A stretch of 48,336 bases of DNA from Geobacter sp. GTDB lineage: Bacteria; Desulfobacterota; Desulfuromonadia; Geobacterales; DSM-12255. The position numbers and the translations under genes were made by a program. Of the stretch, positions 5,470 through 38,405 are shown in pieces (the first letter of the stretch is position 1; each line of letters opens with the position of its first letter). Location of the stretch: the NCBI GenBank assembly GCA_009886125.1, contig VFJK01000067.1, positions 1 through 48,336 on the forward strand. Reading direction: 5' to 3'. The notes beneath the pieces are model-generated. The model was not told the DNA's origin. It worked only from the letters and a program-made list of their open reading frames with translations, and did not search any database.

Positions 5470-6753
5470 TTACAGATATTTCCTCGGGTCTGCGATTTTT
5501 CCCTCGATAGCTGTTGCCGCACTTGTTGCCGGTGACATCAGGTGTACCATACCGCCCTTTCCCATTCGTCCCATGAAGTTACGGTTGGTTGTCGAGGCAC
5601 AGACTTCTCCATCAGCAAGAACGCCGTTGCTCATCCCGAGGCAGGCGCCGCATGTCGGATTGGTCACACAGAACCCGGCTTCCATAAAAATATCGATCAG
5701 GCCCTCTTTGTTGGCAGCCTGGTAGATGTCAGGGGTAGCAGGCGACAGTATCCCGCGAACGCCGGGGGCAAGTTTCCGCCCTTTCAGAATCGCTGCTGCG
5801 ATGCGAAGGTCTTCAAGACGTCCATTGGTGCAGGAGCCGATGTATATCTGATCGACCGGAGTGCCGGCAATCTCACTGACAGGTTTGACCTGGTCCGGTT
5901 TGTAGCCGAAGGTGACTGTCGGTTCGAGGGTCGTTACATCTATGTTCAGCGTGCTGTCATAAATGGCGTCATCATCCGAGCACCATTTTTTGAAATCCGC
6001 ACAAGCAGCGTCTTTGGAGGGATATTCGCTGCTGATGAACGGCCAGAGATAGTCGACGGTCGTCATGTCAGGCATACAGATACCTGAGGTCCCGCCCGCT
6101 TCGATAGCCATGTTGCAGAGAGTCATGCGCGACTCCATGCTCATTGCATCTATAACAGTGCCGCGGAATTCCATTACCCGGTCAGTTGCGCCATTGACGG
6201 TCAGTTTCCCGATTATATGAAGAATGACATCTTTTGCGTAGACACCTTTTGGAAGTGTGCCGGTCACATTTATTCTGATCGTTTTCGGTTCACGGAAAGC
6301 GCAGACCCCTTTCAGTATGCCGACTTCAAGGTCGGTTGTGCCGATCCCGGCGGCAAAGGCACCGAATGCACCGTGCGTACAGGTGTGAGAGTCTCCCATG
6401 ATGACAGTATAGCCGGGCCGTATGAATCCTTTTTCAGGGAATATCGCATGGCAGACACCGTTTGCGCCGATATCGAAAAAGTCCTTTATCGCGTGACGGT
6501 GAGCCCAGTCCCTGAGGATTTTGGCCTGTGTAGCCGTCTTTGTGTCTTTACTGGGGGTGACATGGTCGATAACGGCCTTGATCTTACTCGTGTCGAATAT
6601 CCGGTCCTTTCCCCGTGCCATAAGATCATCTATTGCAATAGGAGTAGTGATCTCGTGACACATAACGACATCGAGTTTCAGTACTTTTGTTCCCGGGAAC
6701 GGTTCATCAACGAGATGTGACGCGAAAATTTTCTCTGCGGTTGTTTTGCCCAT
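5470..6753 (-). CDS. leuC: 3-isopropylmalate dehydratase large subunit family
   Basis: This 427-residue aconitase-superfamily subunit has substrate and cluster motifs in order: MCHEITTPIAI, VMGDSHTCTHGAFGAFAAGI (about 120-139), YIGSCTNGRLEDL and TNPTCGACLGMSNG. The Cys of SCTN and the two of CGAC are the expected 4Fe-4S ligands. Its length fits the LeuC2/HacA-like branch found in archaea and many anaerobes rather than the roughly 470-residue enterobacterial LeuC. It is first in an operon with leuD and has a plausible sigma70 promoter upstream. 3-Isopropylmalate dehydratase is the best call; homoaconitase-like or dimethylmalate dehydratase activity cannot be excluded from sequence. Confidence 0.88.
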   Translation of the reverse strand: MGKTTAEKIFASHLVDEPFPGTKVLKLDVVMCHEITTPIAIDDLMARGKDRIFDTSKIKAVIDHVTPSKDTKTATQAKILRDWAHRHAIKDFFDIGANGVCHAIFPEKGFIRPGYTVIMGDSHTCTHGAFGAFAAGIGTTDLEVGILKGVCAFREPKTIRINVTGTLPKGVYAKDVILHIIGKLTVNGATDRVMEFRGTVIDAMSMESRMTLCNMAIEAGGTSGICMPDMTTVDYLWPFISSEYPSKDAACADFKKWCSDDDAIYDSTLNIDVTTLEPTVTFGYKPDQVKPVSEIAGTPVDQIYIGSCTNGRLEDLRIAAAILKGRKLAPGVRGILSPATPDIYQAANKEGLIDIFMEAGFCVTNPTCGACLGMSNGVLADGEVCASTTNRNFMGRMGKGGMVHLMSPATSAATAIEGKIADPRKYL

Positions 6754-32042: not shown

Positions 32043-32855
32043 TTAACCCTTCAGCCAGGCTACTATCTCGGCAGCAATATCATCAGCAGGCATATCCTTG
32101 ACGATCCTTGTCTCCCGTCTCTGGCTCGGCAGCTCGACAGCCTGGTACGATATCCCTCCTGTGCCGACAGCAGCAGTCTGGGCTTTCTGCAGGGCAGGCA
32201 TGATCGTCCGCATGTTGACCATGCCGATCTGCGGGTTGTTCGGCGGTTCGGGAAGGTTTCCGGTCGCCCAGGCAAGAACAGCCGGTGCTGCGGAACATTC
32301 CGAGACCTGGTACTGTCCACCTTCGATACGCTCCAGGACCCTCAAGGCGCCGTTTTCAGTGACAGTCAGTTCATCAACACCGAGAAACTGCTCAGTGAGT
32401 CCCAACTGCTCGCCGATCATCTGCATGGTAACGCCGGCGTCGCGGGACGCTGAGGCGCAGCCGCCGAACAGGAGGAGCCTGGAGCGGTCGAGTCCGGGAA
32501 TGCTGCCGATTGCTCCGGCAAGAGCTGCCGCAACCTCGGTAGAGTCGGTAAACCCGCTGGCCGGGCCGTCCAGGACAACCAGCTCGAAGGCCACCTTTTG
32601 GGCAATTGACATCATGAGCTGCTGCAGTTTGGCTTTCGGCCCAAGACTGACCAGCCAGACCTTGCTCCCGGGTACCTTCTTTGCGAGGTTGGCAGCTTCG
32701 TACAGTGAATGCCCGGCCCATGGGTCGAGTACCGACGGCAGCATCATCTCGTTCTTCAGTGCAGGTCCTGTAGCCCCTTCCATGGGAGCAAGGGTTTGCA
32801 ATGGATCGGGAACGATGCTCCCGCAGACAACAATGTGAAATCCTCCGTTCATCAT
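32043..32855 (-). CDS. Electron transfer flavoprotein beta-subunit family
   Basis: This 270-residue protein has an EtfB-like Rossmann half: IVVCGSIVPDP, NEMMLPSVLDPWAGHSLYEA, VWLVSLGPK, and the nucleotide-loop region VLDGPASGFTDSTEVAAAL. A VNMRTIMPALQKA segment corresponds to the EtfB signature loop that docks dehydrogenases. It lies 62 bp before etfA on the same strand and is separated from the ETF:QO-like gene by the four-unit repeat array. ETF carries electrons from acyl-CoA-type dehydrogenases to the membrane quinone pool. Confidence 0.85.
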   Translation of the reverse strand: MMNGGFHIVVCGSIVPDPLQTLAPMEGATGPALKNEMMLPSVLDPWAGHSLYEAANLAKKVPGSKVWLVSLGPKAKLQQLMMSIAQKVAFELVVLDGPASGFTDSTEVAAALAGAIGSIPGLDRSRLLLFGGCASASRDAGVTMQMIGEQLGLTEQFLGVDELTVTENGALRVLERIEGGQYQVSECSAAPAVLAWATGNLPEPPNNPQIGMVNMRTIMPALQKAQTAAVGTGGISYQAVELPSQRRETRIVKDMPADDIAAEIVAWLKG

Positions 32856-32883
32856 CTACCTCTCTTCGTGTTAATAGTGTGTT

Positions 32884-33044
32884 CACCTGTGAAGCAAGAG
32901 TGCCATCTTCCGCTCATGCCTCCGCTTTTGCCATGTGAATTATTTCATGGGTTGTAAATCTCGAATAGTGCCTACGTCCTTATATCACCAGTTGGCCCTG
33001 GGCTGCGGCATTACGCTGTACCTGGCACTCTTGCTTCACAGGTG
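32884..33044. repeat. Palindrome-ended repeat unit 1 of 4
   Basis: This 161-bp unit is bounded by a perfect 22-bp inverted pair (32884-32905 and 33023-33044; core GTGAAGCAAGAGTGCC). Interior words CTCATGCCT, TTTCATGGG, CTCGAATAGTGCC and TGGGCTGCGG recur in the other units. A stop after FHGL closes the peptide frame that stays open in the other units, so coding is unlikely. Confidence 0.85.
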
Positions 33045-33070
33045 TTTGCAGGTGCATCAATGTCGCTTGT

Positions 33071-33232
33071 GCATCAGTGAGGCAAGGGGGCCGGCTGCAG
33101 CGTAATGCCGCAGCCCAAGGCCAACTGGTACCATCAGATAATCAGCAGCGCTCAAGGCCATCTCACCATGAAATGAATCAGGTGCCAAAGCGGAGGTTTT
33201 AGCGTAAGCCGGCTCTCTTGTCTCGCTGATGC
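33071..33232. repeat. Palindrome-ended repeat unit 2 of 4 (reverse orientation)
   Basis: This 162-bp unit lies in reverse orientation to unit 1. Its ends match at 22 of 26 positions as an inverted repeat (33071-33096 with 33207-33232). Reverse-complemented it shares CAGTTGGCC, TGGGCTGCGGCATTACGCTG and the CCTTGCCTCACTGATGC end with its neighbours. Confidence 0.85.
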
Positions 33233-33242
33233 GAGGGTGAAC

Positions 33243-33397
33243 CAGTGAGGCAAGGGGATCGGCTTTCACTCATGCCTGCGCTTTTAGCGGCTTATTCATT
33301 TCATGGGGTGCTAAACTCGAATAGTGCCGACGTCCTGGTAACACCGGATGGCCATGGGCTACGGCGTTTCGCTTCAGCCGACCCCCTTGCCTCACTG
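33243..33397. repeat. Palindrome-ended repeat unit 3 of 4
   Basis: This 155-bp unit has ends (33243-33264 and 33376-33397; CAGTGAGGCAAGGGG core) that match as an inverted repeat at 21 of 22 positions. It has the same orientation as unit 1 and contains CTCGAATAGTGCC and GGCCATGGGCTACGG. Confidence 0.85.
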
Positions 33398-33408
33398 ATG
33401 CTAGAGTG

Positions 33409-33573
33409 TGAATCAGCGAATCAAGCGAATCGGTTTCCGCTTATGCCTTCGCTTTTATCGTCAGATTTATTTCAAGGGATACGTATCCCGAATAGTTCCT
33501 TCATCAAGGTATCGCCGGTTGGCCATGGGCTGCGGTTTTTCGCTTCAGCCGACTCAGTTGCTTCACTGGTTCA
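33409..33573. repeat. Palindrome-ended repeat unit 4 of 4
   Basis: This 165-bp unit is the most diverged. Its ends (33409-33435 and 33547-33573) match at 20 of 27 positions. It has the same orientation as units 1 and 3 and shares CTTATGCCTTCGCTTTT, CCGAATAGT and GGCCATGGGCTGCGG. It ends 16 bp before the ETF:QO-like stop codon. Confidence 0.8.
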
Positions 33574-33589
33574 GGAGATGTCTTACTTA

Positions 33590-35428
33590 TCAGCTCTCGG
33601 CCGAGTGGAGCCCGCCGGCTCCCGCCCTGAAATCCACGTTCGTCCGCTCGGCATCGCCTTTGCGCGGTTTGTCGCAGTTCCACTGGCAGGCGCCGCAGTG
33701 GATGCATTTCTCCCGGTCGAACTGGGGAATTCCGCCCCCTTCGCTTGCAGTGATCGCCTGGCCGGAGCAGATCTCCACGCAGAGCTGCGGAGAGCAGCCG
33801 CTGCAGCGTTCCGGATCCAGCATGACCACATGATCTCTGAATCCGGCCGGAGCCTGTACCTTGCCACCCATGAGGAGGGCATCCTGTTGGGAGATGAGGA
33901 GTTGACCGTCCAGAGGGATCTGCGGCCAGCCGAGTTCGTCCATGATCGCATCGGCCAGGGATTCCCCTCTGGCGACAGCCCCCTGCTGGATCTCCTGGAC
34001 CTTTTCCGGGGCGATCCTGCCGCTGCAGTACTCCTGGAGTGTCGGAATCCGGTCGAAGGGGCGCTTGATCTCCCCCGAGAGGTTTATCTTCCCTCCGGTC
34101 AGTCCGGTCAGTCCCATGCCGATAAGCCCGGTCAACACCCCTTTCTGGAAGCCGTCACGGGCGCACTTTGCCTGCTCTGCCTCCTGCTCAACCCAGCTGC
34201 TGCGTCGGCGTCGGAGGTAGGCAGCATCCAGGTTCTCTTTGGAGAACGGCTTACCTTCCTTAACGAGTTCGATGACTCCTTCTGCCAGCTGTACGCCGGT
34301 CGCCCAGGCTTCGTCAACGCCGGAGCCGGTCAGGACATTAGTACTCCCCGACCCTTCGCCGATCCTCGCAAAGCCGTCTCCTACAAGGAACGGCTCTCCG
34401 CGTTTGCCGGACTCCTGCAGGGTCTTGGCCCCCCAGGAGCGGAGCGTGCCCCCTTCAAGGTGCTGCCAGATAGCGGGGTGCATCATCCAGTGCTGCAGGT
34501 AACGGTAGCTGGTCCGGATTGGAGAATCGAACCACGAGGGGACGAATATGCCGAGGGAAGCGACCCGGTCCGGGTAGACATAGAGAAAGCCGAAGATCTC
34601 CGGCTCCGGGAAACCGATGGTATGGAACACCGTACCCGGCTTGAGTGTAGTATTCTCGGGGAGTTCCACGACAAACTTCATGCCGACGGCCCACTCACGC
34701 TGGTGATTGTCCTCCGGCAGGCCGAAATGCCTGTCCAGAGCCTGGCCGACCGGTCCTACCGGCCCGTCGCCGACCACGGTAAGAGGGGCGCGGATATCCA
34801 TGCCGGGCATGAATCCGGCGGCAGGCGAACCGTCCTTGTTCACACCCTGATCAGCCAGTCTGATCCCCACGACCTGGTCCCCTTCGAGGAGCGGCTCGCT
34901 GACCGGCATGCCGGGCCAGACCTGCACGAGCCCGGAAGCCATGAGCTGGCTGCCGACCCACTGGGTGAACTGGCCGATGGAGAGTACCATGCCGTCATTT
35001 TTGTGAAGAAACGGGGGGATGTACGGGAGCTCAAAGGCATGGTCGCCTGAGGAGAGGAGCCCGACCACCTTGTCGACGACCTTGATCCCGAAAGAGCGTC
35101 TGCTGGCCCCGACCGGGTCGAGGAGGTAGACGACTTTCTCATCGGTGACCGGTGCCGCCATGGGTATATCGGCAGGATTCAGCTCGGTAAAGGTGCCGCG
35201 GATGCTGCGGCCGCGGGTCACGACTCCGGAAACGCCGAAGCTGATATCATCGGCCCGTTCGTAGCAGAGAACCTGTAGCGGCATACCCGGCATGACCCTG
35301 CTTTCGAGCAGCGGCATGCCGCTCTCGTCCACCAGTTCCCGGGAGAGCGTGGTCAAAAAACCGCCCATGGCCGGCCCGAAGCCGACACAGGCAATATCAA
35401 CCTCCATTGTCTGCCGATCAATGGTCAT
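33590..35428 (-). CDS. ETF:quinone oxidoreductase-like (FixC-type) flavoprotein with C-terminal ferredoxin domain
   Basis: This 612-residue protein starts near ATG 35428 (AAGGAG upstream; ATG 35407 is an alternative). The N-terminus has a dinucleotide fold, DIACVGFGPAMGGFL. Further FAD/quinone regions include VGDGPVGPVGQ, a hydrophobic GVLTGLIGMGLTGLTGG stretch, and FARIGEGSGSTNVLTGSG. The C-terminus has two Cys clusters, CSGCSPQLCVEIC and CIHCGACQWNC. ETF:QO normally has one 4Fe-4S centre; the first cluster here has unusual spacing. It would pass electrons from the adjacent ETF to menaquinone at the inner membrane. Palindromic repeats lie on both sides of it within the operon. Confidence 0.85.
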   Translation of the reverse strand: MTIDRQTMEVDIACVGFGPAMGGFLTTLSRELVDESGMPLLESRVMPGMPLQVLCYERADDISFGVSGVVTRGRSIRGTFTELNPADIPMAAPVTDEKVVYLLDPVGASRRSFGIKVVDKVVGLLSSGDHAFELPYIPPFLHKNDGMVLSIGQFTQWVGSQLMASGLVQVWPGMPVSEPLLEGDQVVGIRLADQGVNKDGSPAAGFMPGMDIRAPLTVVGDGPVGPVGQALDRHFGLPEDNHQREWAVGMKFVVELPENTTLKPGTVFHTIGFPEPEIFGFLYVYPDRVASLGIFVPSWFDSPIRTSYRYLQHWMMHPAIWQHLEGGTLRSWGAKTLQESGKRGEPFLVGDGFARIGEGSGSTNVLTGSGVDEAWATGVQLAEGVIELVKEGKPFSKENLDAAYLRRRRSSWVEQEAEQAKCARDGFQKGVLTGLIGMGLTGLTGGKINLSGEIKRPFDRIPTLQEYCSGRIAPEKVQEIQQGAVARGESLADAIMDELGWPQIPLDGQLLISQQDALLMGGKVQAPAGFRDHVVMLDPERCSGCSPQLCVEICSGQAITASEGGGIPQFDREKCIHCGACQWNCDKPRKGDAERTNVDFRAGAGGLHSAES

Positions 35429-37985: not shown

Positions 37986-37995
37986 TTGTATACAA
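37986..37995. promoter_or_regulatory. TTGTATACAA palindrome between divergent genes
   Basis: This perfect 10-bp palindrome lies between the dehydrogenase operon and the divergent repeat-protein gene and overlaps a possible -10 for the latter (TATACAAT). A near copy (TTGTATACAG) is at 24067-24076 in front of citrate synthase, hinting at a shared regulator. Confidence 0.4.
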
Positions 37996-38033
37996 TTTTG
38001 CACCATTCGGCAATGAAATCAGGAGGTGTATTT

Positions 38034-38405
38034 ATGTGGAAATCAAAAGCACTGTTGGCTGTGCTGTTCTTATCCGTTGCTACACTCTGCTACGGCGAAA
38101 ACAGTGTGGCTGACGATGCAAAAGAGGCCGGCCGGAAAGCCGGAAAGATCGGCAAGGAGACGGGCCAGGCCTTCAAGGAAACCGGGAAGGAGATCGGGCA
38201 GAAGTCGAAGGAATTAGGCAAGGAGGCCGGTGAAGCCGGCAAGAAAGTCGGGAAAGAGGCAGGTGAGGCTGGCAGGAAAGTCGGCAAGGAGGCTGGGGAG
38301 GCAGGGAAAGAGGCCGGCGAAACTGCGAAAAAAGGGGGCAGGAGTGTCGGGGGGTTTTTCAGGGGGGTAGGGCAGTCGTTCAGGAAGTTCTTTACCGGGA
38401 AATGA
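38034..38405 (+). CDS. Secreted lysine/glutamate/glycine-rich repeat protein (LEA-like)
   Basis: I chose ATG 38034, preceded by AGGAGGT, giving 123 residues with a signal peptide (LLAVLFLSVATLCYG). The mature part is a run of degenerate short repeats of the type KEAGEAGKKVG and KETG, predicted amphipathic or disordered, like late-embryogenesis-abundant and YtxH/apolipoprotein-type proteins. It ends GGFFRGVGQSFRKFF. It is probably periplasmic and may protect envelope components under stress; that is inference. The gene is divergent from the dehydrogenase operon across the GTATAC palindrome. Confidence 0.7.
   Translation: MWKSKALLAVLFLSVATLCYGENSVADDAKEAGRKAGKIGKETGQAFKETGKEIGQKSKELGKEAGEAGKKVGKEAGEAGRKVGKEAGEAGKEAGETAKKGGRSVGGFFRGVGQSFRKFFTGK

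Follow-up and report, generated by a model that had tools for sequence, protein, structure and literature searches.

The spacer between an ETF:QO-like gene and an etfB-like gene of Geobacter sp. (contig VFJK01000067.1) is occupied by four related units of ~169 bp in the orientation +,-,+,+. The question raised by this locus is what kind of element the units represent, and how four of them came to lie side by side within one operon. The window analysed was the whole 48,336-nucleotide stretch of this contig. The names etfB and ETF:QO were taken from the first-pass annotation of the sequence, and the open reading frames were located here.

Location, units and predicted fold of the array

32043..32855, - strand: etfB-like gene, downstream of the array in the transcript sense (ORF)
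32880..33048, + strand: unit 1, putative MITE (R2 37.4 bits, E 2e-7)
32884-32905 / 33023-33044: inverted arms of unit 1 (22 bp, perfect)
33068..33235, - strand: unit 2, putative MITE, inverted relative to the other three (R2 30.2 bits, E 1e-5)
33236..33404, + strand: unit 3, putative MITE, abutting unit 2 (R2 33.2 bits, E 2e-6)
33407..33575, + strand: unit 4, putative MITE (R2 17.9 bits, E 0.008)
33590..35428, - strand: ETF:QO-like gene, upstream of the array in the transcript sense (ORF; its ortholog in G001, a genome of the same genus, adjoins the etfB ortholog)

Scores are those of R2, a structured model derived from 36 dispersed copies with the array units excluded; in a search of 91 kb it recovered every unit of the array (E 2e-7 to 0.008). 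Unit boundaries were placed by comparison with homologous copies of the wider family.

The etfB start codon lies 24 bp from one edge of the array, and the ETF:QO stop codon 14 bp from the other. The order and orientation of the four units agreed with the first-pass annotation, and pairwise identity over the alignment was 60-74%. The annotation had placed gaps of 10-26 bp between units; with homology-set ends the units were separate only in part, with spacings of 19 bp (units 1 and 2), 0 bp (units 2 and 3) and 2 bp (units 3 and 4), since diverged unit ends had partly been counted as gap. Inverted terminal repeats were verified on every unit: over the outer 28 bp the arms of units 1 to 4 paired at 22, 21, 22 and 19 positions, respectively, whereas 2000 shuffles of each unit gave ~7 on average and at most 14-15. 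The 22-bp perfect arm described for unit 1 was exact. The outermost bases had drifted in most unit ends. Among the array ends, the right end of unit 4, read on the - strand as CCTGAACCAGTGA, came nearest to the IS1380-type terminus CCTGAATCCGTGA, matching it at 11 of 13 positions, and the others were not close.

The transcript-sense strand of the array had a predicted fold of -315.5 kcal/mol (z -11.3, 20 shuffles), a strong fold such as inverted repeats necessarily form. No terminator or promoter signal at the array rose above shuffles, and a DNA-level search of plasmids gave no match to it. Rfam returned only sub-threshold matches, to eukaryotic families that suit any hairpin. Elsewhere in the window, a + strand ORF of 139 aa at 37986-38405 carries repeated KEAGEAGKKVG-like motifs.

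Dispersed relatives of the units

The BLASTN searches proposed in the first-pass annotation, with units 1 and 3 against the own genome (G000) and unit 3 against 57 relatives, detected only the array, and profile models were therefore needed for copies elsewhere to emerge. A profile of the four units gave weaker matches, some of them in the own genome and some in others; one of the own-genome matches, used as a BLASTN query, returned 55 matches. An iterated profile search of the fetched own-genome loci placed copies at 41 positions (two short or cut at the locus end), after which further copies, including arm-only deletion derivatives, were found. By profile, the own genome thus contains ~40 dispersed homologous relatives, mostly intergenic. 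In the order, 24 of the 141 genomes had matches to the structured model from dispersed copies, with subfamilies that tended to be genus-specific; the subfamily of the array itself was seen, by profile and tree, only at this locus. The units are short, bear terminal inverted repeats and lack a transposase gene, and the superfamily copies found by profile are multiple and dispersed, as in bacterial MITEs.

The outer arms were less well conserved than two inner blocks, which read CTCTCACTGCAACGCCTCTGCTT and GCCCCGGCTGTTTCCGTTCGATACGG in the own genome. Relatives with intact ends in genomes of family f4 had the form CCTGAATCCGTGA...TCACGGATTCAGG. Single arms were sampled in three f4 genomes; the partner arm usually lay ~160-175 bp off, and no longer, transposase-bearing copy was found at these sites. 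Matches to a 17-base pattern in genome contigs were scattered over unrelated phyla and were given no weight as evidence; they provided only a control background.

Several copies had altered interiors. A second repeat, CAAACCCCTCTAAATCTCCCCTTGTCAGGGGAGACTTC..., sits inside three own-genome copies (L209 5984-6185, L210 1441-1634 and L212 1419-1636) at a similar position, after CAACGCC, and a cut copy (L270 3132-3186) also runs into this sequence. In three other copies (L269 ~2373-2405, L268 ~2271-2303 and L308 ~6050-6080) the interior is deleted and the arms stand back to back as short near-perfect palindromes of ~31-44 bp.

Target duplications and IS1380-type ends

The flanks of 43 copies, mostly from other genomes of the order and partly non-independent (one overlapping pair, a few orthologous), showed 63% identity over 5 bp versus 27% for shuffled partners. 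At lengths of 2-4 and 6-10 bp, identity was 25-34%. At least four of the five flanking positions matched in 20 of the 43 copies (0.9 expected) and, in the same register, in 10 of 39 own-genome copies (1.3 expected; permutation p 0.002). Superfamily members are thus flanked by a target-site duplication, as expected of MITEs. The first register scans of the own genome had suggested a duplication of 9 bp, of which per-position identity left only the middle five positions matching; after register correction the own-genome ends read YYTGAATCC...GGATTCARR with a 5-bp duplication.

Ends of the form CC...GG together with 5-bp duplications are reminiscent of the IS1380 family, and this pattern led us to examine IS1380 elements, on which the same traits were found. 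A transposase in G010, a related genome, scored 298.6 bits with the NCBIfam IS1380 model (cut-off 180) and belongs to an element of 1692 bp that ends in CCTGACTCCGTGA/CCTGAATCCGTGA and is flanked by a perfect duplication of ATATA. More IS1380 elements of the order, 1.64-1.69 kb long with the G010 element included, had ends as in the MITE relatives. Outside the order, the annotated plasmid element ISAzo40 had ends CCTGAATCCGTGTT with AGTTA duplicated, and a Methylomonas plasmid copy had like ends with TTACT duplicated; copies in Magnetococcus and Halomonas had like ends, with no matching duplication at the boundaries tested. As background, the control contigs, 887 kb in all, contained 7 occurrences of CCTGAATCCGTGA with at most 2 mismatches. 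A DDE transposase with matching ends, which the first-pass annotation had proposed to look for, was accordingly located on IS1380-family elements of related genomes.

Searches with PF13701 and the G010 protein found no IS1380 transposase in the own genome, a 192-contig draft in which repeats break contigs and so qualify the absence. None was found in the sampled genus mates, and the transposase was present elsewhere in the order. Beyond their ends, the MITE and the IS shared nothing in the regions compared, so that an origin of the MITE by internal deletion of an IS is conjectural. A separate element of 817 bp in G007 (L354 1386-2202), with CCTGACTCCGTGA/CCTGAATCCGTGA ends and pieces of an IS1380 transposase, is an internally deleted IS.

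Covariation of the arms

Persistent matching of the arms as copies diverge is the one unusual trait of the array and its family. Among the 36 dispersed copies, changes on both sides were seen at 22 of 24 arm pairs. Covarying cells numbered 73; shuffles gave 15.6 ± 3.6 and slid controls 22-36. Cell counts overstate the number of events because related copies inherit changes together. Within the array, units 1 and 3 differed by 6 fully compensated pairs while unit 1 remained paired at 22 of 22 positions, and the arms of a unit matched each other at 85% of positions versus 69% for arms of different units. Two causes fit this matching, selection on a folded molecule and arm-by-arm correction during replication.

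The gene context of 39 dispersed copies was determined with a simple ORF caller. Between two called genes lay 34 of them, and one was inside a called ORF. Codirectional genes flanked 22 of the 34, a share that we judge usual for bacterial gaps. The orientation of the copies relative to codirectional neighbours showed no preference (11 of 22).

Origin of the array

The units are homologous to dispersed elements, the relatives carry 5-bp duplications, and IS1380 elements share their ends. The units are probably old, decayed members of this IS1380-type MITE superfamily; one such element would have inserted and then been multiplied locally by duplication and inversion. Under this reading a MITE superfamily of ~170 bp would have spread over the order, its movement driven in trans by DDE transposases of the IS1380 family, which would recognise CCTGAATCCGTGA at the ends and cut the target DNA with a 5-bp stagger. 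A single element of a divergent subfamily would have inserted into the ETF:QO-etfB spacer, past the stop codon and ahead of the next ribosome-binding site, and multiplied there afterwards. Today the array would probably be immobile, transcribed as folded spacer RNA and tolerated.

The local route is suggested by the tree, in which the four units formed one clade (support 1.0). Mean identity of dispersed G000 copies to array units was 44%, well below that within the array. With midpoint rooting the array lay nearer to the G010, G007 and G039 subfamilies than to the dispersed copies of its own genome, in a tree whose deep branches are weak owing to the short noncoding alignment. Since the units form a clade of their own, local duplication with inversion explains them better than four separate insertions of dispersed copies would.

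Several observations stand against parts of this account. When flanking 5-mers were compared, neither the individual units nor the array as a whole showed a 5-bp duplication, and most unit ends have drifted in their outermost bases. The missing duplication is consistent with age or with local duplication, and it weakens the view of the units, in their present form, as insertions. The paired arm changes keep the arms complementary, which would not be expected from passive decay alone. MITE and IS are alike in their ends only, as far as compared. The failure to find a transposase in the genome or the sampled genus mates weighs against the IS1380 link.

In G001, the orthologous ETF:QO-etfB spacer had no match to the models R1 or R2, so the array was gained in its own lineage or lost in that of G001. 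The G001 spacer instead holds other sequence, reading as a small GIY-YIG-like frame, which suggests that this spacer accepts unrelated inserts. The insert (L248 1648-2113) has its short frame between GTCATGCCCGA and GGGAATGAC sequences.

Alternative explanations

The first-pass annotation had envisaged repeated insertion of an element at or near its own ends, and four independent insertions of the dispersed MITEs of this genome, with every newcomer entering at or close to an end of an earlier one, would account for the mixed orientation and the tight spacing. Several multicopy sequences in one intergenic region are also reported for Geobacter bemidjiensis (PMC2996986). The junctions without target duplications, the separate clade and the low identity to dispersed G000 copies speak against this origin, and we consider it unlikely. 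Movement by a Y1 (HUH) transposase, as REP/RAYT-type or TIRYT-type repeats, is suggested by the long inverted ends and the clustering, and some families with terminal inverted repeats have been linked to tyrosine transposases (PMC3733652). A single Y1 gene was found, and the 8 kb retrieved with it contained no such element, so the association with Y1 that marks REP/RAYT elements, and that the annotation had raised for the units, did not hold here, and the 5-bp duplication and the ends common to IS1380 elements fit a DDE mechanism; a Y1 origin is very improbable. Less credible still is a diverged protein-coding repeat. The + strand frame noted in the annotation is indeed open through units 3 and 4, and unit 1 contains the stop codon described; a coding pattern is absent. 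Mismatches between units 3 and 4 fell at codon positions one to three in the numbers 20, 11 and 13, without third-position bias, neither translation tested matched a Pfam family at E 0.01, and no encoded relative of the frame was found in a search of the genome contigs. The long + ORF also runs on antisense through the ETF:QO gene. Together with the dispersed relatives and their duplications, this upholds the preference of the annotation for a non-autonomous mobile element over a protein.

A domesticated or selected RNA is a rival about as unlikely as the four insertions; here the paired arm changes would be selected and the spacer hairpins would set the expression of ETF:QO relative to etfB by processing, stability or attenuation. 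The arm covariation, the closer match of a unit's own arms and a transcript that folds far below shuffles are in its favour. Against it, dispersed copies lie in both orientations between varied gene pairs, their codirectional share seems ordinary, the same-genus locus lacks the array, and terminator or promoter signals are at shuffle level. The case for a host function of the hairpins is thin, and such a role seems doubtful. Were the paired changes selected, MITE transcripts could be retained as structured spacer RNA and the array, as a domesticated multi-hairpin regulator, could control the ETF operon, a proposal to which we give slightly less weight again. We thus favour decayed MITEs multiplied in place.

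Comparison with known elements and significance

The terminal motif CCTGAATCCGTG and 5-bp duplications of IS1380 elements (ISAzo40 of Aromatoleum aromaticum and the 1.64-1.69-kb elements of related genomes) resemble those of the MITE relatives, as does the DR of 5 bp in IS1247 of Paracoccus, an IS1380-family element of 1672 bp with IR 16/13 (PMC3281130). The array units differ from these IS in their length of ~169 bp, the lack of a transposase and a longer, covarying palindrome; their inner conserved blocks were not found in IS1380 elements by models R1 and R2. Bacterial MITEs such as NEMIS/Correia, ERIC, Bcr1 and RUP are non-coding sequences of 70-300 bp with inverted ends of 15-30 bp, a location near coding sequences and a strong predicted fold (PMC3733652). 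The array shares their size class, inverted ends, non-coding nature, position close to genes and strong predicted fold. It differs in the connection of its family with IS1380 through end motif and duplication, in the presence of four units of mixed orientation in one spacer, and in the covarying arms.

Intergenic multicopy sequence families, some palindromic, have been described in Geobacter and Pelobacter genomes, and the ends of one G. metallireducens set form inverted repeats; the excerpts of these sources name no transposase (PMC2700814, PMC2996986, PMC3543383). The likeness to our family is one of description only, and the family may already be tabulated there. Judged from its sequence, the array is best read as clustered, decayed MITEs with IS1380-type ends, ordinary in kind apart from the covarying arms. 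An intergenic repeat family found across the order would thereby gain a likely mobilising enzyme, and the Geobacter and Pelobacter multicopy sequences would become testable as IS1380-driven MITEs. The covarying arms would offer a clean case for weighing palindrome correction against selection in keeping long inverted repeats matched.
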